Positions 2,912-59,539 of a stretch of DNA of 64,000 nucleotides are shown piece after piece. Within the stretch, counting starts at the first letter, position 1. Every line of letters starts with the position of its first letter. Below the pieces are notes generated by a model. It worked only from the letters and a program-made list of their open reading frames with translations. It made no database searches and was not told where the DNA came from. Made by a program: the position numbers and the translations under genes. Origin of the DNA: Sinomonas sp. P10A9 (lineage in GTDB: Bacteria; Actinomycetota; Actinomycetes; Actinomycetales; Micrococcaceae); assembly GCF_041022165.1 (NCBI RefSeq), contig NZ_CP163302.1:2728001-2792000 (forward strand). Reading direction: 5' to 3'.

Positions 2912-4963
2912 ATGCGTTCGACGGCGAAGACTCTGCTTGCTGCCTTGGCGGCAGCCTTCCTGGTGCTCTTCCCCGCGACGTCGGCCGCGTGGGCGGCCGA
3001 CCCCGTCACCGTACCTTCGGGTACCAACATCGTCGATCCCCAGAGCGCCCTCGGTTCCCGCAAGGCCGAGGTCCAGAAAGCCATCTCGGACCTCCTGTCC
3101 CAGCATCGCGTGAACCTCTACGTCGTGATCGTCGATTCGTTCACCAATCCGAGCGACCGGGCCGCCTGGGCGCACGCGGTGGCTACGAACACCGGCATGG
3201 GCGGCTCTGACGTGCTTCTCGCGGTCGCGACATCCGGGCAGTACCAGCTCGTCGCCAACACGCTCAACACGAAGGTCTACTCGAAGACGACGGCCATCGC
3301 CCAGAACGCCATCACCCCGAACTTGGCCGGCGGCAAGAAGGACTATGCACAGGCAGCCATCGACACGGCCAAGGCGGTAGGGGACGCCGCGGGCGGAGGG
3401 AGCGGAAACGTCTCGTCCGGCGCCGATGCCACGCCGTGGCTCGTGGGCGGAGGCGTCGTGGTTGCTGGCGCTGGCGCGGCGTACCTCATCTCGCGGCGAC
3501 GGAAGATGGCGGGTGGACCGGTTCAGGGGCAGGTCGGCCCGGGTCAGGACCAACTCGACCCTCTCGCGTCACTGAGCACGGACGAGCTCCGCAAACGGGC
3601 CAGCGGGCTCCTCGTCCATGCGGACGACGTCATCCGCTCGAGCGAGCAGGAACTGGGGTTCGCCGAGGCGTCCTACGGCACCGAGGCCGTGGGGAACTTC
3701 ACGAAGGCCCTGACCGACGCCAAGGCCCACTTGAGCGAATCCTTCAAGCTGCAGCAGCAGCTCGACGACCACGTACCGAACACTGAGGCCCAGCAGCGCC
3801 AGTGGCTCGGCGACATCATCCGCCGCTCGGAGGCCGCGATCTCCTCGCTCGCCGAGCAGAAGGCCGACTTCGACGCGCTGCGTGAGCTAGAGCGCAAGGC
3901 GCCCGAGGCCTTGGACGAGGTCACCAAGGGAGCGGCAGACGCCCAAGCCCAGCTCGCCGCCGCGCAGCGTTCCCTCACCCAGCTCCAGACCAAGTACGCC
4001 GACTCGGCAGTCAAGCATGTGACGGACAACATCACCCAGGCCAGGGACCGCCTCGCGTTCGTGGCGAACGCGTCGGAGACGGCGAAGCAGAAGCTCGCCG
4101 AAGGTCAGACGAGCCCCGCCGCGATCGCGGTCCGCGCGAGCGAGGAGGCGCTCCACCAGACGCGCGTCCTGCTCGACGCGATCGACAAGGCCGGTTCGGC
4201 GCTCGACGACGCACAGGGCCGCATCGATCCGGCGCTTGCCGATACGCAGGGGGATCTTGCCCAGGCCAAGGCGCTCGCCGTTGAGGGCCAGCATCCCGAA
4301 CTCGCCGGCCCGGTGGCCGCGGCCGAGGCAGCGCTCGCAGCCGTGAGGCAGGAGCTCGGAGCCGGACGGGTCGATCCGATCGGCCTGCTGCAGCGCGTCG
4401 AGACGGCGCACACCCAGCTCGACGAAGCCCTCACCGGCGTTCGGGACAGGCAGCAGCAGGCGCAGCGTGCTCAGGCGTCGCTCCAACAGGCGATCCAGAG
4501 CGCGCAGGCCCAGATCAGCGCCACGAGCGACTACATCGCGGCCCGGCGCGGCGGCGTGGGCACCGAGGCCCGGACACGGCTCGCCGAGGCGCAGCGCAAT
4601 CTCGATTACGCCCTGTCAATCTCCGGCAGCGACCCGGTGACGGCTCTCGCGTACGCCCAGCAGGCAGCATCCCTCGCGGCGCAGGCCTCGGAGATCGCGC
4701 AGCAGGACGTGGACCAGTTCTCCGGCTGGGGCGGGGGGCCCGGGGCGGGCGGCATGTTCGGCGGCCGCCGGAACGGGGGCGGCATCGGCGGGGCCATCCT
4801 CGGCGGAATCATCATCGACTCGATCCTCCGCGGCGGCCACCACGACGGTGGAGGCTGGGGAGACGGCGGAGGCTTCGGTGGGGGCGGGGGAGGCTGGGGC
4901 GGCGACGGAGGCGGCTTCGGCGGCGATGGCGGAGGATTCGGCGGCGACGGCGGCAGCTTCTAG
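2912..4963 (+). CDS. TPM-domain membrane protein with coiled-coil and Gly-rich tail
   Basis: A secreted-then-anchored protein of 683 residues. It starts with a signal peptide (LLAALAAAFLVLFPATSAAWA, cleaved near 29), followed by a TPM domain (about 30-160, with YVVIVDSF and NLAGGKKDYAQAAI). A membrane segment lies near 175-192 and is followed by basic RRRK. The rest is a long Ala/Gln/Glu-rich helical region, probably coiled coil (about 225-600), and a tail of GGW/GGF-GGDG repeats ending in GGSF. TPM domains are linked to thylakoid/phosphatase-like and membrane-repair proteins, but the biochemical role of this branch is unknown. The ATG at 2912 has a GAAGGAC site. PspA starts 91 bp downstream on the same strand, which suggests a joint role in membrane stress. 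Confidence 0.85.
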   Translation: MRSTAKTLLAALAAAFLVLFPATSAAWAADPVTVPSGTNIVDPQSALGSRKAEVQKAISDLLSQHRVNLYVVIVDSFTNPSDRAAWAHAVATNTGMGGSDVLLAVATSGQYQLVANTLNTKVYSKTTAIAQNAITPNLAGGKKDYAQAAIDTAKAVGDAAGGGSGNVSSGADATPWLVGGGVVVAGAGAAYLISRRRKMAGGPVQGQVGPGQDQLDPLASLSTDELRKRASGLLVHADDVIRSSEQELGFAEASYGTEAVGNFTKALTDAKAHLSESFKLQQQLDDHVPNTEAQQRQWLGDIIRRSEAAISSLAEQKADFDALRELERKAPEALDEVTKGAADAQAQLAAAQRSLTQLQTKYADSAVKHVTDNITQARDRLAFVANASETAKQKLAEGQTSPAAIAVRASEEALHQTRVLLDAIDKAGSALDDAQGRIDPALADTQGDLAQAKALAVEGQHPELAGPVAAAEAALAAVRQELGAGRVDPIGLLQRVETAHTQLDEALTGVRDRQQQAQRAQASLQQAIQSAQAQISATSDYIAARRGGVGTEARTRLAEAQRNLDYALSISGSDPVTALAYAQQAASLAAQASEIAQQDVDQFSGWGGGPGAGGMFGGRRNGGGIGGAILGGIIIDSILRGGHHDGGGWGDGGGFGGGGGGWGGDGGGFGGDGGGFGGDGGSF

Positions 4964-28999: not shown

Positions 29000-29072
29000 G
29001 GAATCTATCCCAAGATCGATTCCGAGGCGAGAAATTGGTGAGCACTTCTCGGGGCAAGATTCGTACTCTTGC
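29000..29072. promoter_or_regulatory. Divergent lrp/lysE control region with two inverted repeats
   Basis: Repeat 1 is GGAATC (29000-29005) with GATTCC (29018-29023), overlapping the TAGATT -10 of the Lrp gene. Repeat 2 is GCAAGA (29054-29059) with TCTTGC (29067-29072), a perfect 6-bp inverted repeat that overlaps the TACTCT -10 (29064-29069) of lysE and ends 3 nt before its ATG. Both fit operator sites for the adjacent Lrp protein; binding is inferred. Confidence 0.55.
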
Positions 29073-29075
29073 AGC

Positions 29076-29750
29076 ATGGATCTGACCCCGCTGCTCGGCT
29101 TCGCCGCCATCTCCCTCACGCTCGCGCTCACCCCGGGCGCGGACTGGGCATACACCATTGCCGCGGGTCTCCGCCCCGGCTCCCCGGCGCCGTCGATCGC
29201 GGGGCTGTGCGCGGGATACGTGGTGCACACGGCCCTGGTCGCGATGGGGCTCGGAATGCTGCTCGCTGCACGGCCCGATCTGGTCTCCATGCTTTCCATC
29301 GCCGGGGCGGTGTACCTGGTCTGGCTAGGAGTTACGACGACGCGTGGCTGGCGTCGGGCAGGATTCACCGGGGGCGGGGCGACGCTGCCCTCGGGGGAGG
29401 CGCTCGACGCCGCCGTGCGCACCCCGGGTCCCATGGTCGACTTCCTCAAGGGCCTCGGCACGAGCGGGATCAATCCCAAGGCACTGCTGCTGTTCGCGGC
29501 AGTCATGCCGCAGTTCGTGCGCACCGGCTCGCCGATGCCAGTCGTCGCCCAGACCACGGCGATGGGGCTCACCCATCTCGCGTTCACCATCGTGGTCTAC
29601 ACCCTCGTGGCGGTGGCAGCGCGCCGACTCCTGGCCGCCAAGCCGAAGCGGGCGCAGATCGTGACGCTCGTGAGTGGGGTGCTCATGCTCGGCATCGGCG
29701 GCGGGCTGCTCGCCGAGCAGGGCGCGGCCCTGATCGGGACGCTCGCATAG
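29076..29750 (+). CDS. LysE/RhtB family amino-acid exporter
   Basis: A 224-residue membrane protein with about six segments. The N-terminal LLGFAAISLTLALTPGADWAYTIAAGL carries the LysE/RhtB TPG-x-D signature, and GISPKA-like GINPKALLLFAAVMPQF in the middle is the second conserved block. It should export one or more amino acids or threonine-like compounds. The middle loop is longer than usual (about residues 90-125, Gly/Ala/Thr-rich). The ATG at 29076 is 6 nt after TACTCT, so the mRNA is probably leaderless. Regulation by the divergent Lrp protein is likely, and the amino-acid importer lies just beyond it. Confidence 0.9.
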   Translation: MDLTPLLGFAAISLTLALTPGADWAYTIAAGLRPGSPAPSIAGLCAGYVVHTALVAMGLGMLLAARPDLVSMLSIAGAVYLVWLGVTTTRGWRRAGFTGGGATLPSGEALDAAVRTPGPMVDFLKGLGTSGINPKALLLFAAVMPQFVRTGSPMPVVAQTTAMGLTHLAFTIVVYTLVAVAARRLLAAKPKRAQIVTLVSGVLMLGIGGGLLAEQGAALIGTLA

Positions 29751-29752
29751 GC

Positions 29753-29881
29753 GCCAGAGACCCCACAACCGGCTGCCAGAGACCCCACAACGCCGAAAGG
29801 TGACCCCGCGTCGGGCAGGCACGATGCGGGGTCACGTATCAGCGACTGGGGGTCATGTTTCAGCGACGCGGGGTCATGTCC
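29753..29881. repeat. Composite intergenic repeats between lysE and hemL (22-bp and 21-bp units)
   Basis: Two tandem copies of GCCAGAGACCCCACAAC start at 29753 and 29775 (22-bp period). GTGACCCCGC (29800-29809) and GCGGGGTCAC (29826-29835) form a perfect 10-bp inverted repeat able to act as a bidirectional terminator. The second arm starts an array of GGGGTCA units at 29828, 29849 and 29870, exactly 21 bp apart, with intervening TATCAGCGACT and TTTCAGCGACG. The array ends next to the hemL stop codon. The 21-bp unit is the same element that forms the 5' coding end of hemD at 34293-34481. Confidence 0.85.
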
Positions 29882-31195
29882 CTACGCGCCCGGAAGGGCC
29901 GCCGCGGCGGCCCGAGCCGCGGCCGGGAGCGCATCGAAAATGCGGGTCATCGCGGCGTCGTCGTGGGCGGCGGAGAGGAACCAGGCCTCGAAGACGCTCG
30001 GCGGCAGGTACACACCGGAGTCGAGCATCGAATGGAAGAAGGGACCGTAGCGGAACGCCTCCTGGGCCTGCGCGTCAGCGTAGTTGTGCACGCCGCGCTC
30101 GGACGTGCCGAACGCGACGGAGAACAGGTTGCCGGCCCGCTGGATCGAGTGGTCGACCCCCTCGGCAGACAGTGCCGCCGAGACGGCCGCCGAAAGGTCT
30201 GCCGCCCGCGCATCGATGTGCGCGTACACGGCATCGGTGGCCAGACGCAGGGTCGCGACACCCGCAGCCATCGCCACCGGGTTTCCGGACAGCGTGCCGG
30301 CCTGGTACACCGGCCCCAGCGGCGCCAGATAATCCATGATCGATGCGCGGCCGCCGAGGGCCGCGACGGGCATGCCGCCGCCGATCACCTTGCCGAAAGT
30401 GAACAGGTCCGGGGCCCACCCCTCATGCTGGCCCGTGAGGCCCCAGTAGCCCGCGGATCCCACCCGGAAGCCGGTGAGGACCTCGTCCATGATGAAGAGC
30501 GCGCCGTGCTCGGCGGTGATCCGGCGCAGGCCCTCGTTGAAGCCCTCCCTGGGAGCGACGACGCCCATGTTTGCCGGTGCGGCCTCGGTGATGACGGCCG
30601 CGACGCGCGACCCGTGCTCGGCGAAGGCTGCCTCGACGGCGGCGAGGTCGTTGTACGGCAGGACGAGGGTCTCGGCGGCGGTGGCAGCGGTGACGCCCGC
30701 GGACCCCGGCAGCGCGAGCGTCGCGACTCCCGAGCCCGCCGCAGCGAGCAGCGAGTCGACGTGCCCGTGGTAGCAACCCGCGAACTTCACGACGAGATCG
30801 CGACCGGTATACCCGCGTGCGAGGCGGATCGCGGTCATTGTCGCCTCGGTACCGGTGGAGACCATACGCACCCGTTCGACGGCCCCGACGCGCCCGATCA
30901 GGAGCTCGGCCAGCGCAGCCTCGTCCGGCGTGGAGGCGCCGAAGGACAGCCCGCGGTCCACGGCCGCGTGGACGGCCTCGAGGACCTCCGGCACGGCATG
31001 GCCCAGGAGTGCGGGACCCCACGAGCACACGAGGTCCGCGTACTCCCGTCCGTCCGCGTCGGTCACGTACGGACCCTTCGCGGAAACGAGGAAGCGGGGC
31101 GTCCCTCCCACGGAACCGAACGCGCGAACGGGCGAGTTCACCCCTCCCGGCATGAGCGAGCGGGCACGGGCAAAGAGGTCCTCGGACGTGGTCAT
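29882..31195 (-). CDS. hemL: Glutamate-1-semialdehyde 2,1-aminomutase
   Basis: A 437-residue PLP enzyme that converts glutamate-1-semialdehyde to 5-aminolevulinate, the second step of the C5 heme route after HemA. Visible signatures are [15 protein letters not shown] at the start, [41 protein letters not shown], and the PLP lysine in [15 protein letters not shown]. It has the full expected length. The ATG at 31195 has a purine-rich site just upstream. It is the last gene of the minus-strand heme block, separated from the LLM gene by 117 bp that includes a GCACGACG inverted repeat, so it may have its own promoter. Confidence 0.96.
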
Positions 31196-31251
31196 GCCCC
31201 CATTCTTCCATCCAGCGGAGGGCGCGACGGCAGCGCGCGGCGAGTGACCGC

Positions 31252-31282
31252 CGTCGTGCGTGCCGCCCCAACGCGCACGACG
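31252..31282. repeat. Inverted repeat of the GCACGACGGC family upstream of hemL
   Basis: CGTCGTGCG (31252-31260) and CGCACGACG (31274-31282) are perfect 9-bp arms around a 13-nt loop. It lies between the LLM oxidoreductase gene (ending 31313) and hemL (starting 31195), where it may end or attenuate minus-strand readthrough. Compared with the other hairpins, the two half-sites are in opposite order. Confidence 0.6.
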
Positions 31283-31312
31283 CCGGCCCTCGCCTTCGCG
31301 GCCGACGTTGCC

Positions 31313-32368
31313 CTACGCGAGCAGGTCCGCCACGAGCGGTGCGACCTTGGTGCCGAAGAGCTCGATGCTCTTCATCATGGCGCCGTGCGAGAGCGTCCCG
31401 TTGGAGTACTTGAGGTCGAATCGCTCGGTGCCGAGGGCCTTGTGCGTGTCCGCGATCTTGCGTGCCACCGTCTCGGGCGAGCCCACATACAGGGCCCCCG
31501 GACGCGATGCCTGGGAGTTGAACTCGGTACGGCTGCCGGGGCCCCACCCGCGTTCCTCGCCGAGGCGGTTGCGCATCGCGAGCCAGTGCGGGAAGAGCTC
31601 CTCGCGGGCCTGCTCGTCGGTGTCCGCTATGTGCCCGGGCGAGTGCGTCGCGAGCATCGTGTACGGCTGCTTGAACTTCTCGAGCGAGCGCTTGTACAGC
31701 TCGACGTAGGGCGCGAAGCGCGCGGGCTCGCCGCCGATGATCGCGAAGCTCACGGGGTAGCCGTACTGCGCGGCCCGGACCACCGACTGCGGCGTGCCGC
31801 CCACGCCGATCCATGTCCTCAGGAGCCCGTCCTCGAGGTGCGGATAGGCCGTGAGTCCGTTGATGGGTCCGCGGTGGCGGCCCTCCCAGCGGACCGGGTT
31901 CTGGGAGCGGACGCGGTCGAACAGCTCGAGCTTCTCCTCGAACAGCGTCTCGTAGTCTTCGAGGTCGAAGCCGAAGAGCGGGAACGACTCGATGAACGAG
32001 CCCCTGCCGAGGATGACCTCGGCGCGGCCGTTCGAGACAGCGTCAAGCGTCGAGAAGCGCTGGAAGACACGGACCGGATCGTCCGAGGAGAGGACCGTGA
32101 CCGCCGAGCCGAGCCGGATGTTCTCCGTCTTCGACGCAATCGCCGAGAGGACCACCTCCGGCGCGGAGACGGCGAAGTCCTTGCGGTGATGCTCGCCGAC
32201 GTCGAACGAGTAGAGGCCCACCTGATCGGCGAGGACGCCTTCCTCGACGACGTCGCGGATCACCTGGGCGTGCGGCTTCGGCTCACCGTCGGGGCCGAGC
32301 CCGACATCGCCGAACGTGTTGAGGCCGAGGAGGACCGGGGTGTGCCCGTCATCTGCATGCATATGCAT
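31313..32368 (-). CDS. LLM-class (luciferase-like) flavin-dependent oxidoreductase
   Basis: A 351-residue TIM-barrel flavoprotein of the bacterial luciferase-like superfamily. It has GLNTFGDVG at the first strand, GLYSFDVGEHHRKDFAVSAP, the flavin-binding region ILGRGSFIESFPLFG, and YVGSPETVARKIADTH near the C-terminus. Substrate is unknown. The ATG at 32368 is preceded directly by an in-frame TGA, so the start must be here or at the third codon. The start codon lies in a perfect 12-bp palindrome ATGCATATGCAT (32357-32368), and no close Shine-Dalgarno site is seen. It sits between hemB and hemL, with no known role in heme synthesis. Confidence 0.9.
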   Translation of the reverse strand: MHMHADDGHTPVLLGLNTFGDVGLGPDGEPKPHAQVIRDVVEEGVLADQVGLYSFDVGEHHRKDFAVSAPEVVLSAIASKTENIRLGSAVTVLSSDDPVRVFQRFSTLDAVSNGRAEVILGRGSFIESFPLFGFDLEDYETLFEEKLELFDRVRSQNPVRWEGRHRGPINGLTAYPHLEDGLLRTWIGVGGTPQSVVRAAQYGYPVSFAIIGGEPARFAPYVELYKRSLEKFKQPYTMLATHSPGHIADTDEQAREELFPHWLAMRNRLGEERGWGPGSRTEFNSQASRPGALYVGSPETVARKIADTHKALGTERFDLKYSNGTLSHGAMMKSIELFGTKVAPLVADLLA

Positions 32369-32421
32369 TCAAACCGCGAGGCTCGCTGCTTCATTCCCTC
32401 CCGGTTGCACCGGTGCCCCGC

Positions 32422-33402
32422 TCAGGCCTCCTTGAGCCAGCCTGCGATCTCCGGCGCCCAGTACGTGAGGACCATGTTCGCGCCCGCCCGGCGGATCCCC
32501 AGGACGGACTCCAGGATGGATGCCTTCCGGTCGATCCACCCGCGTGCGGCCGCCGCCTCGATCATCGAGTACTCCCCCGAGATCTGGTATGCGGCAACGG
32601 GGACCGGGCTCATGGCGGCGACGTCGGCGAGGATGTCGAGGTAGCTCATGGCCGGCTTGACCATGACCATGTCCGCGCCCTCCTCAAGGTCCAGCTCAAC
32701 CTCGAGGAGCGCCTCGCGGCGGTTCGCGGCGTCCATCTGGTACGTGCGGCGGTCGCCCTGCAGCTGCGAATCGACGGCCTCGCGGAACGGCCCATAGAAC
32801 GCCGAGGCGTACTTGGCGGCGTAGGCGAGAATCGAGACATCATGGCGGCCGGCGGCGTCGAGCGCCTGGCGGATCACGGCAACCTGGCCGTCCATCATGC
32901 CGCTCGGCCCGAGCACGTGGGCGCCCGCCTCAGCCTGCGCCACCGCCATCTGCCCGTAGATCTCGAGCGTCGCATCGTTGTCCACGCGGCCCTCGGCATC
33001 CAGAACGCCGCAGTGACCGTGATCGGTGAACTCGTCGAGGCACACGTCGCTCATGATCACGAGCGAGTCCCCGACCTCTTCACGCACGGCGCGGATGCCC
33101 GCGTTGAGCACGCCGTCGGGGTCGAGCGACGCGGTGCCCTCGGCATCGCGCTCCTCGGGCACGCCGAACAGCATGATCCCGCCCAGCCCCAGCTCAGCGG
33201 CCTCGGCCGCCGCGCGCCGAAGCGTGTCCGAGGTGTGCTGGACGACGCCGGGCATCGACTGGATCGGCTGCGGCTCGGTGAGTCCCTCCCGCACGAATGC
33301 AGGCAGGATGAGCTCGGCGGGGTGGAGACGCGTCTCGGCGACAAGTCGGCGCAGGGCAGGGGTCTGGCGCAGGCGACGGGGGCGGTGGGTCGGGAAGCTC
33401 AT
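32422..33402 (-). CDS. hemB: Delta-aminolevulinic acid dehydratase (porphobilinogen synthase)
   Basis: A 326-residue enzyme that condenses two 5-aminolevulinates to porphobilinogen. The two active-site lysines are visible in [15 protein letters not shown] and [11 protein letters not shown]. The metal-site segment [15 protein letters not shown] retains Cys and is of the zinc-type pattern with CxDxxTxxGHCG. FVREG and MPGVVQHT near the start are also family features. It follows hemD with a 26-bp gap and precedes the LLM gene. Full length and an ATG at 33402 leave little doubt. Confidence 0.97.
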
Positions 33403-33428
33403 GGCGTGACTTTCAGGATCGAGGTGGG

Positions 33429-34490
33429 TCAGGGATTGAGCGAACGGGCGATCGCGTCCACGATGCCTGCAGGGGACGGAGCCGAGGCGGTCGTCGCAGC
33501 CGGAATGCCGAGCCGCTCCAGCTCGGCGGCGGTCGGCTCGCCGATCGCGATGAGTCGGGTCTTCTCGAGTGGATGGAGCACGTCGTGGATCCGCCGGGCT
33601 GCGCTCGGCGACGCGGCGAGGATCGCGTCGAGACTCCCCGCCGCCAGCTCGTCGTTGGCCTCGTCGGGGGAAAGCACGACGGCGCGCGCTTCCTGCCCGG
33701 CCTGCTCACCAGCAGCGAGACTCGTCACGAGACGCCGTTCGGGGTTCGCGGGATAGTCCACCGTACTGTATGCCGTGACCGTCTCGACCGACCAGCCGCG
33801 GGCGTCCAGTCCCTCGGCCAGAGTCGGGGCCGCGAGGTTGCTCTGCGGAATGAGCACCCGGGTGATGCCCGCACCGTCGCCGCCCGCGGCCCCCGCGTCG
33901 TCCGCGTACGCCCAGAGCTCGACGAGTCCCTCGGCGGACTGCCTGCCTGCCGGAGCGAGGTCCACGCGGAGGCCCTCGGCCTCCAGCACGCGGCGCGAAC
34001 TGGGGCCGATCGTGGCGATCCGCACCCCTGGCGGTACGAGCGCCGGAAGCCCGACGCCTCGCGTGGCCGCGACCTCCTTGAGGGCGCGCACAGTCGTGAT
34101 ACTCGAGATGACGAGCCACCCGTACTCCCCCGCCGCGAGCCGGTCGAGGGCCGCGGACAGCAGGGCCTGATCCGGGGCACGCTCGAAGTCGATCATGGGC
34201 AGCAGCAGCGGCTCCGCGCCCGCCTCAGCCAGCGCCGCTGCCATGGCCCCGGCACGGTCTGGGCTGCGGGTCAGCAGTACCCTTCGGCCCGCGAGAGGTG
34301 ACCCCGCATCGCCGGGACGTGACCCCGGGCCACTGAGACGTGACCCCGCATCGCTGAGGGGTGACCCCCCATCACTGGGATCTGACCCCGCATCGCTGGG
34401 AGGTGACCCCGCATCGCTGGGAGGTGACCCCGCATCGCTGGGAGGTGACCCCGCATCGCTGGGAGGTGACCCCGCATCGCTGGCGGCCAT
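33429..34490 (-). CDS. hemD: Uroporphyrinogen-III synthase with a repeat-encoded N-terminal extension
   Basis: A 353-residue HemD, which inverts ring D while closing hydroxymethylbilane. The catalytic core begins near residue 67 ([15 protein letters not shown]) and shows the bilobal family pattern ([68 protein letters not shown]). The first 66 residues are not family sequence: after MAA come nine heptads, four identical SDAGSPP then progressively altered copies, encoded by nine 21-bp DNA repeats. The ATG at 34490 overlaps the hemC stop (TGATG), so translation is coupled and the repeats are translated unless a start inside the core is used. The core of about 287 residues is normal length. Confidence 0.9.
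34293..34481 (-). repeat. Nine-copy 21-bp in-frame tandem repeat at the 5' end of hemD
   Basis: Nine units of exactly 21 bp occupy 189 bp. TGACCCC recurs at 34299, 34320, 34341, 34362, 34383, 34404, 34425, 34446 and 34467. The four units nearest the hemD start are identical at DNA level (AGCGATGCGGGGTCACCTCCC on minus, given in two parts: AGCGATGCGGGG, TCACCTCCC), and the others diverge with distance. Because 21 is a multiple of 3, copies can be gained or lost without a frameshift. The same unit occurs between lysE and hemL (29826-29880). There are no spacers, so it is not a CRISPR array. Confidence 0.95.
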
Positions 34491-35488
34491 CAGGCGCGCA
34501 GGTCTGCGAGGTCCGCGGCGCCCTGTGCCAGCAGCTCCTCGGCCAGCTCGATGCCCAGAAGGGTCGCGCCGACCTCGGTCAGGCCGTCGGTGGCCCGCGC
34601 GAGGCGCAGCGACTTCGTGCCGTCCACCGCGCACACCACGGCCTCGAGTCGGAGCATGCTCCCCTTGCGCCGGGCGAAGGCACCGACGGGTGCCGCACAG
34701 CCGGCTTCGAGGCGGGCCAGGAGCGCGCGTTCGGCCGTTACGGCGAGACGGGTATCGGCGTCCTCGATCGCAGCGAGCGCGTGCGCGAGTACGCCCTGAG
34801 CGGCAGAGGCGCCGCTCGCGGCACCGCCGTGCGCAGGCCGTTCGGGGGCGTCCTCGATGCGGCACTCGACTGCCAGAGCGCCCTGCCCGGGCGCCGGCAG
34901 CATGACTTCGGGCTCGAAGTGCTCGGTGACCACGTCCGTGCGGCCCAGACGGGCCAGCCCGGCGCCGGCGAGGACGACGGCGTCGAGGTCGCCTGGCGCC
35001 TCAGATGCGTTGCCCGGGAGTCCGGGAACCCGGCCCAGTCGCGTGTCGACATTGCCGCGGATGTCGAGGACCTCGAGGTCGGGCCGGAGGGCCCGCAGCT
35101 GGGCGGCGCGCCGTGGCGACCCGGTGCCGATCCTGGCGCCGGAGGGCAGCTCGGCGAGGGTGAGCCCGTCGCGGGCGCACAGCACGTCGCGGTGGTCGGC
35201 ACGGACCGGGACAGCCGCGATGGACAGCCCGGGCGCGCCGGCGGTGGGAAGGTCCTTGAGCGAGTGGATCGCCACATCACACCGGTCCGCGAGGAGCGCT
35301 TCGCGCAGCGCCGCGACGAACACCCCGGTCCCGCCGAGGGACGCGAGGGATCCGGTCTTGACGTCACCCTCCGTGCGGATGCGCACGAGCTCGGTCGTGA
35401 AGCCTCCCACGGCTGAGAGCAGGTCGGCTGTCTGCTGCGACTGGGTCAGGGCGAGCGCGCTCCCGCGCGTTCCGATGCGAACGGACAT
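34490..35488 (-). CDS. hemC: Hydroxymethylbilane synthase (porphobilinogen deaminase)
   Basis: A 332-residue enzyme that polymerises four porphobilinogens on a dipyrromethane cofactor. Signatures: RIGTRGSALALTQSQ at the start, HSLKDLPTAGAPGLSIAAVP, and ARIGTGSPRRAAQLRALRPD. The cofactor-binding Cys264 is in EAGCAAPVGAFA. The ATG at 35488 is chosen because it begins the conserved strand; a longer in-frame reading into hemH is rejected. Only 2 bp separate it from the hemH stop, and its own stop overlaps hemD, so hemH-hemC-hemD are translationally linked. Confidence 0.96.
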   Translation of the reverse strand: MSVRIGTRGSALALTQSQQTADLLSAVGGFTTELVRIRTEGDVKTGSLASLGGTGVFVAALREALLADRCDVAIHSLKDLPTAGAPGLSIAAVPVRADHRDVLCARDGLTLAELPSGARIGTGSPRRAAQLRALRPDLEVLDIRGNVDTRLGRVPGLPGNASEAPGDLDAVVLAGAGLARLGRTDVVTEHFEPEVMLPAPGQGALAVECRIEDAPERPAHGGAASGASAAQGVLAHALAAIEDADTRLAVTAERALLARLEAGCAAPVGAFARRKGSMLRLEAVVCAVDGTKSLRLARATDGLTEVGATLLGIELAEELLAQGAADLADLRA

Positions 35489-35490
35489 GC

Positions 35491-36819
35491 TCAGGCCTCG
35501 GTACCCGGTGCGCTTGTGCCCTGCCGCTCGGCCGTGGCGTCCGGATACGCATCGTGGGTCGCGCCGAGCACGATGCTCTCCCCTGTGCCCGCTTCCGCGA
35601 TCACCGGCTTGGCTCCGCGGAAGTTCTCGCAGCAGCCCGGGCGGCACACGTCGTACCAGGGGCCGAGGTCGGTCGCGTGCGGCCGCTGGGCCAGGTTTCG
35701 GTCCACGGTCCGCTCACTGATGAGCTTCACGAGGCCAGCCACGAACTCGCGGTGGACGCCCGGCGTCGGAACGCGGACGGCCTCGATCCCGAGCTCTCGG
35801 CACTTGTCGAGCGCCTCAGTGTCAAGGTCCCAAACGACCTCCATGTGGTCGCTCACGAAGCCGAGCGGAACGATGACTGTCCCCTTGACAGCCTGCCTCC
35901 CCTCGCCGCCTGCAGCGATGGCGTCGAGATGGTCGTTGATGTCCGGCTCGAGCCAGGGGATGTGCGGGGCACCCGAGCGGGACTGGTAGACGAGGTCCCA
36001 GGCCACGTGGGGAGCCACGGCGGCCATGATGGCCCGAGCATTCGCGAGGTGCTGCGCCACGTAGGCGGAGCCTCCCTCGAATTCGCGGGGTTCGCCCTCC
36101 GAGCGGCCGGCGGCCTCGGCATCACGGGTCGGGATCGAGTGGGTCGAGAAGAGCACGCGGATCTCGGAGTCGCGCGAGCCGTCGGCGGCGCCGAGCGCCT
36201 CCCTCACGGTCTTCAGGCCCGCCGAGGTCCCCTCGACGAAGGGCGCCACGAAACCGGGGTGGTCGAAGTACTGCCGGACCTTGTCCACGCGCAGGCGGCC
36301 GGCCAGACCGGTCTCCGTCAGCGCGACGCCGATGTCTTCGCGGTACTGGCGGCAGCTCGAGTAGCACGAGTACACACTCGTGGTGAGCATGAGGACCTTG
36401 CGGTGCCCGGCGTCGTAGATGTCCTGGAGTGTCTGGGGGATGTAGGGGTCCCAGTTGCGGTTGCCCCAGTACACGGGCAGGTCGATGCTCTGCGCCGCGA
36501 GTTCGGCCTCGAGCGCGGCCTTGAGGGCGCGGTTCTGGGCGTTGATGGGGCTGATCCCGCCGAACGCGCGGTAGTGGTGGCTCACCGCTTCGAGGCGCTC
36601 GTCAGGGATGCCGCGGCCTCGGGTCACGTTGCGCAGGAACGGCAGGACGTCGTCCTGGCCCTCGGGTCCGCCGAAGGACGCGAGCAGGATCGCGTCGTAC
36701 TCGGCGGCCTCTGCACGGCCGGCCTCGGTGACCGGATTCGGCGCAACGCTGACGGCGATAGGTGCGACGGCGCCGTCGACCGTGATCTGGACGGTATCCC
36801 CAGAGGTCGAGGCACTCAC
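35491..36819 (-). CDS. hemH: Coproporphyrin ferrochelatase (CpfC/HemH)
   Basis: A 442-residue ferrochelatase that, in the actinobacterial route, inserts iron into coproporphyrin III. Family features are ILLASFGGPEGQDDVLPFL, YWGNRNWDPYIPQTL, VLFSTHSIPTRDAE with the metal-binding His, and VVPLGFVSDHMEVVWDLD. Cysteines in YSCYSSCRQY and the C-terminal DVCRPGCCENFRG resemble the [2Fe-2S] ligands described for actinobacterial ferrochelatases. The N-terminus has a 35-40 residue extension before the core. The GTG at 36819 shares GTGA with the hemQ stop. Cluster presence is inferred. Confidence 0.94.
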   Translation of the reverse strand: MSASTSGDTVQITVDGAVAPIAVSVAPNPVTEAGRAEAAEYDAILLASFGGPEGQDDVLPFLRNVTRGRGIPDERLEAVSHHYRAFGGISPINAQNRALKAALEAELAAQSIDLPVYWGNRNWDPYIPQTLQDIYDAGHRKVLMLTTSVYSCYSSCRQYREDIGVALTETGLAGRLRVDKVRQYFDHPGFVAPFVEGTSAGLKTVREALGAADGSRDSEIRVLFSTHSIPTRDAEAAGRSEGEPREFEGGSAYVAQHLANARAIMAAVAPHVAWDLVYQSRSGAPHIPWLEPDINDHLDAIAAGGEGRQAVKGTVIVPLGFVSDHMEVVWDLDTEALDKCRELGIEAVRVPTPGVHREFVAGLVKLISERTVDRNLAQRPHATDLGPWYDVCRPGCCENFRGAKPVIAEAGTGESIVLGATHDAYPDATAERQGTSAPGTEA

Positions 36820-58624: not shown

Positions 58625-59539
58625 CTACGCGCTCGGGTTGGCCTCGTCGTCGCCCTTCCCGGCGGGCCGGGGCTCCCCCTCCGGCTTTGGCTCTGGTTCC
58701 ACGCGCACGCCGTACTGCGGGCGGCCGTCAGGGAGATCGTGGTAGCCGGCGCGCGGCTCGTGGGCCGGCTGAGCGGGCACGGCCTTCGGCTCCGCGGCTT
58801 CCGGCTGCGGCTCGCCACCAGCGTTCACGCCGTACGGATCGGTCCATCCGGACGGCCGCTTTGGCTCGTCATGCTGCGGAGGCTGCCACGGCTGGCCGTA
58901 GCCCGGCTGCTGCTGACCATAACCACCCTGCTGACCATAGCCGCCCGGCTGGCCATAACCACCCTGCTGGTGCTGGCCACCCTGCTGGCCGTAGCCGCCC
59001 GGCTGGCCATAGCCGCTCTGCTGGTGCTGGCCACTCTGGACCGCCCCCTGGCCCATGGGGAGCTGGGCGAGGAGCCTGCGCGCCTCGTGGGCCACGTCCT
59101 GGCCGACAATGACGTCATAGTTGCTCGCGATCACCTGGCTCGTCGACGTGAAGTCCCTCTTGCCGCGCTGCATCGCATACGTCACGATGCCGAACAGCAT
59201 GAAGAAGGCCGCGCCCATGAGCACGGACGTGATGATCGAGAAATAGCTGCCGTTTGGCGTGAAGAACGAGAGCAGCACGCCCACGAACAAGCCGAACCAC
59301 ATGCCGCTCAGGGCCCCGTTGAGGGCCACCCGGGGGTAGCTCAGGCGGCCGGTGACCCGCTCAACGAGCTTGAGGTCATTGCCGACGATCGCGACCAGCT
59401 CGACCGGGAACTGCTGGTCGGCGAGGTAGTCCACGGCCTTCTGCGCATCGAGGTAGGAAGTGTAGGAGCCGACGGTTTCGCCGTGCGGGAGCGCGCGGGC
59501 CTCGTCGGTGGGCTTCGCGGAACCGAACAAGTTGGACAT
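58625..59539 (-). CDS. YflT-type general-stress membrane protein with Gly/Gln/Tyr repeat tail
   Basis: A 304-residue protein. Its N-terminal part (about 25-70, GSYTSYLDAQKAVDYLADQQ) fits the heat-induced stress protein YflT (general stress protein 17M-like) domain. Two membrane segments follow (about 82-105 and 110-130, ALSGMWFGLFVGVLLSFF and ITSVLMGAAFFMLFGIVTY). The C-terminal half is a low-complexity tail with about ten GYGQ or GQHQQ units, then a Pro/Glu-rich end. The ATG at 59539 has an ATGGAGGC site. The tail resembles the cytoplasmic tail of the HtrA-like protease at the left end of the window. Biochemical function is unknown. Confidence 0.85.
   Translation of the reverse strand: MSNLFGSAKPTDEARALPHGETVGSYTSYLDAQKAVDYLADQQFPVELVAIVGNDLKLVERVTGRLSYPRVALNGALSGMWFGLFVGVLLSFFTPNGSYFSIITSVLMGAAFFMLFGIVTYAMQRGKRDFTSTSQVIASNYDVIVGQDVAHEARRLLAQLPMGQGAVQSGQHQQSGYGQPGGYGQQGGQHQQGGYGQPGGYGQQGGYGQQQPGYGQPWQPPQHDEPKRPSGWTDPYGVNAGGEPQPEAAEPKAVPAQPAHEPRAGYHDLPDGRPQYGVRVEPEPKPEGEPRPAGKGDDEANPSA

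Follow-up and report, generated by a model that had tools for sequence, protein, structure and literature searches.

The N-terminus of uroporphyrinogen-III synthase (HemD) in Sinomonas sp. P10A9 is probably a coding outpost of a dispersed Sinomonas family of 21-bp DNA repeats, GGGGTCA-N14, which the protein seems to carry as a tolerated, nearly neutral and probably disordered hitchhiker. Two members of this family lie in the window, by which we mean the whole 64-kb stretch of P10A9 DNA analysed here, one inside hemD and one between two other genes:

33429..34490, minus strand: hemD, uroporphyrinogen-III synthase, 353 codons, with a Pfam HEM4 match from residue 82
34293..34481, minus strand: array of nine 21-bp units in frame, spanning hemD codons 4-66
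34490..35488, minus strand: hemC, porphobilinogen deaminase, whose TGA shares one base with the hemD ATG
29790..29890: non-coding family member, three units on the plus strand opposed by one on the minus strand, lying where the 3' ends of the LysE-type gene and hemL face each other
29076..29750, plus strand: gene for a LysE-type exporter, flanking the non-coding array on one side
29882..31195, minus strand: hemL, the other flank, a class-III aminotransferase by Pfam, its name inferred from gene place and sequence

The identity of hemD rests on its HEM4 match (E 1.9e-45). The gene starts on the minus strand with an ATG at 34490-34488, which forms a one-base TGATG overlap (34488-34492) with the end of hemC at 34490, and the units fill exactly 34481-34293. 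TRF places the array at 34295-34483 with a period of 21, 9.0 copies and an 86% match. As predicted, nine units stand in frame between the hemD start codon and the enzyme core. They encode SDAGSPP four times, then [35 protein letters not shown], a Ser/Asp/Gly/Pro-rich tail that, judged from its composition, is probably disordered. Because the next in-frame ATG, GTG or TTG past the hemD ATG is codon 83, which falls within the core, the array should be translated if HemD is. The original prediction described four identical units nearest the start and a decay of the remainder with distance; the identity of the first four stands, whereas the later five depart from that sequence at 2, 4, 2, 5 and 2 positions, so that the array consists of an identical block and diverged units, with no smooth gradient.

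As had also been predicted, the same unit occurs as non-coding DNA beside hemL, where three units lie on the plus strand from 29828 and an opposed unit occupies 29792-29812. Allowing up to three mismatches, the 21-mer consensus has 10 matches in the window, against 0.02 expected in shuffles; eight are in the hemD array (one of them at its far end) and two beside hemL. A search of Rfam over positions 29000-36000 of the window gave a single weak match (E 0.72), elsewhere than the repeats. TRF reports further tandem repeats in the window at 2155-2565, 4843-4960 and 58910-59038, possibly reflecting low-complexity protein repeats.

The proposal that a non-coding repeat had been captured in frame is borne out by the rest of the genome, in which the unit belongs to a dispersed and mostly non-coding family. 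Across the 4.29 Mb of P10A9, two exact cores in the arrangement GGGGTCA-N14-GGGGTCA occur 27 and 47 times on the two strands, versus once on each for a reversed control, and our catalogue lists 38 clusters, a minimum for the genome. In a 149-genome sample of the taxonomic family, all seven genomes of the same genus carry 12-232 matches, while 12 of the 142 others carry 1-3, a level at which the reversed control also matches in non-genus genomes (up to 5). A stricter pattern for this first repeat family is positive in nine of 15 Sinomonas genomes (control 0), with no match in the remaining six (G149, G151, G152, G154, G155 and G156), and in a 296-genome sample of the phylum it is found in one genome, P10A9 itself. 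Species differ in their majority unit: A occupies position 21 in 38 of 40 units of genome G121, and C does so in 40 of 42 units of G006 (42 of 214 read) and in 67 of 87 non-coding units of P10A9. No paper title surveyed deals with this 21-bp repeat, a search outside which most subscription papers fell and which does not imply that the repeat is unpublished.

HemD is one of at least five predicted P10A9 proteins that contain such an array in frame, the others being an RskA-like anti-sigma factor, TilS, TreY and HrpB. The RskA-like array shares the frame of HemD and yields DAGSRPS, the TilS and TreY arrays are read in the frame REVTP, and the HrpB array in the frame GGDPAS; the five proteins thus use three reading frames with unrelated peptides, and in all of them the array lies outside Pfam matches, TreY being only partly covered by Pfam. 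Since a single unit is read in three frames to unrelated peptides, it seems to be the DNA that spreads rather than a selected peptide, the peptide being a by-product. At TreY (P10A9 2926832-2929300, locus L165), an array is present at one site in six of 13 readable genus genomes, with a unit number that varies by species.

The arrays also vary in length within a species, as had been anticipated. Strain G153, a second strain of the same species, has seven hemD units to the nine of P10A9, with flanks that are 99.3 and 100% identical; the two-unit difference falls within the identical block, and one substitution in another unit accompanies it. Across the genome, counterparts in G153 could be assigned to 33 of the catalogue's 38 clusters, with flanks 98.5% identical on average; sites 234842, 286279, 756618 and 1101540 remained unpaired, and of these 286279 is probably no family member. 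With 60-150 bp of flanking DNA on either side included, nine paired sites are equal in length; the difference is a non-zero, exact multiple of 21 at 14 sites, within 2 bp of such a multiple at three, 2 bp at two, and 16, 10, 102, 37 and 477 bp at the other five. Copy number thus differs between the strains by whole units at 14 of 33 paired sites, the behaviour of a variable-number tandem repeat. Outside these pairs, the array at 3934215 is also present in G153, about one unit shorter. Among the coding arrays, those of RskA and TreY differ by 21 bp and that of HrpB by 63 bp between the strains, and that of TilS does not differ. No clean empty site emerged among the 34 P10A9 sites compared, G153 carrying units at all of them; sites 3307762 and 1094806, considered as empty or nearly empty in G153, were rejected when units were found there. 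Because no clean empty site separates the strains at the sites compared, movement to new sites can be read only from differences between species. The 477-bp difference (P10A9 3623074-3623122 versus G153 C3:100513-101112) reflects extra degenerate units together with unrelated sequence in G153.

The strongest competing explanation, which we nonetheless regard as improbable, is that the heptads were selected as a linker or regulatory tail of HemD and that their likeness in DNA to intergenic repeats is secondary. The array is in frame and N-terminal to the HEM4 domain, and by eye two to three heptads recur in six of 14 database HemD proteins from related lineages (P0001-P0004, P0006 and P0024). 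Within the genus, G104 has two hemD units and G135 two decayed ones, and the G135 protein keeps a similar peptide, EGAHPGVEGAP, despite the decay of its DNA cores. The share of deviations at third codon positions is also higher in the hemD units (4 of 14) than in non-coding units read in the same phase (57 of 399), a non-significant shift towards silent change (p 0.14). Against a selected linker, no array is recognised in hemD of 11 of the 15 Sinomonas genomes, copy number varies within one species, and the same DNA unit is read elsewhere in two other frames as unrelated peptides. In addition, 10 of 14 deviations in the hemD units fall at codon positions 1 and 2, and variability per position follows that of 87 non-coding units (Spearman 0.58). 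These hemD statistics draw on eight units, too few to exclude weak selection on the peptide.

Elsewhere the family resides mostly at the ends of genes. Gene orientation was taken from a codon-usage gene caller. Among 34 array-bearing gene pairs, 20 are convergent, as opposed to 24 of 183 without an array (Fisher p 4.6e-8), and removal of hemC-hemD, wrongly counted as intergenic, leaves 20 of 33 (p 2.4e-8). Close to arrays, 11 of 38 gene ends use the TGA of TGACCCC as their stop codon, compared with three of 182 elsewhere. At 17 of the 32 intergenic clusters, exact cores lie nearby in each of the two orientations. Folding was assessed on the plus strand for 37 of the 38 clusters (all but 286279): the 32 intergenic clusters have a mean z of -3.2, and direct arrays mostly show little folding. 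For the hemD array, z is +1.44 when the plus strand is folded and +0.06 for the mRNA strand, the latter no better than shuffles.

This last value bears on a suggestion of the original prediction, that copy number acts as a switch tuning HemD translation through the TGATG coupling of hemC to hemD. Such a switch would draw on the variable copy number and on the overlap, both of which are real, but the overlap is situated upstream of the units and does not differ between the nine- and seven-unit strains, steps of 21 bp preserve the frame, and the mRNA of the array has no distinctive fold; we consider this mechanism very unlikely. Equally little credence attaches to the units having descended from multiple terminal repeats that belonged to an IS21- or IS481-type element, as was also suggested: short repeated sites with a conserved core do resemble multiple transposase-binding sites, and the rve match at 993338 has an array about 1.2 kb away, but the genome holds five rve matches to 38 catalogued clusters, each of the remaining four is separated by more than 10 kb from every listed cluster, and the repeats, judged by rve positions relative to those 38 clusters, do not flank a transposase gene.

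For the dispersed repeat as the probable source of the HemD N-terminus, we propose how it may have come about. Arrays would land and grow in tolerant linkers and termini, leaving the gene intact, and their copy number would change by slippage or unequal recombination inside them. Because the 21-bp unit spans seven codons and is open in five of its six frames, arrays can grow without breaking genes. In HemD the outcome would be a near-neutral tail rich in Ser, Asp, Gly and Pro, though such arrays could instead have been co-opted. Between genes, arrays with opposed units may act as hairpins, serving as 3'-end or terminator-like elements, and this role may keep the family in place.

In its behaviour the Sinomonas repeat is closest to the Rickettsia palindromic elements (RPEs) and to the mycobacterial interspersed repetitive units (MIRUs), matching neither in its unit. 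RPEs are described as a dispersed family of elements of about 150 bp, found in frame inside unrelated protein genes and each coding a conserved peptide (PMC10969869). The Sinomonas family likewise places one dispersed repeat in frame in unrelated protein genes, five by prediction here, but its unit is 21 bp long, arranged in direct tandem in variable number and read in three frames, with a peptide that depends on the frame. MIRUs vary in number between strains, as the Sinomonas arrays do. As dispersed actinobacterial repeats, they are reported to meet the start and stop codons of adjoining genes and to insert at start codons, where they bring an ORF that is coupled to the gene (PMC12548453). 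The present family resembles them as a dispersed actinobacterial repeat that meets the stop codons of genes, at the 11 nearby gene ends counted above, and departs from them in that most of its array-bearing gene pairs are convergent and its coding arrays are fused in frame. REP elements are intergenic, often stand in pairs of opposite orientation and have hairpin potential. The intergenic Sinomonas clusters, some with opposed cores, recall such REP/BIME arrangements, but they include long direct tandem arrays of strict 21-bp period in genomes that lack a RAYT. A RAYT-driven REP system was rejected accordingly, the RAYT transposase domain (PF01797) being absent from all 15 Sinomonas genomes and present in five of 14 control genomes. 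The STRR repeats of cyanobacteria are also a single tandem-repeat family spread over a genome, and they differ from the Sinomonas family in their heptanucleotide unit and their phylum.

If the repeat is the source of the HemD tail, it provides, beyond Rickettsia, a case in which non-coding repeat DNA has turned into protein sequence and still varies within a species. With a strain pair, three reading frames and many sites, the rates at which in-frame repeats are gained, lost and tolerated become directly measurable, and the arrays may be used as strain-typing loci.

A more ambitious hypothesis, unlikely as we judge it to be, is that GGGGTCA-N14 and a second family, GGGGTGA-N14, together represent a novel type of short repeat in Sinomonas that is mobile or amplifies itself. 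The two families have in common the strict period of 21 bp, or two helical turns, and a near-palindromic core of 11 bp, GRGGTSACCYC, and would be spread by a putative trans-acting factor. This factor would place arrays where convergent genes have their stop codons and, incidentally, add new in-frame peptides to proteins, HemD among them. The six Sinomonas genomes that lack strict matches to the first family would serve as a contrast set for the trans-acting factor.

The second family, GGGGTGA-N14, also has a 21-bp period and occurs in eight of the 15 genus genomes, with 97 matches in P10A9 and 138 in G135 (control 0). Its loci include L245, L247 and L250-L254, for example P10A9 645973-646084, 1044560-1044671 and 1316945-1317056. 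In 12 stretches read, eight arrays have at least three units, of which three are intergenic between convergent genes, three lie inside predicted genes and two stand between co-directional genes. When taken from the opposite strand, the 11-bp core of this family matches that of the first by eye at nine of 11 positions.
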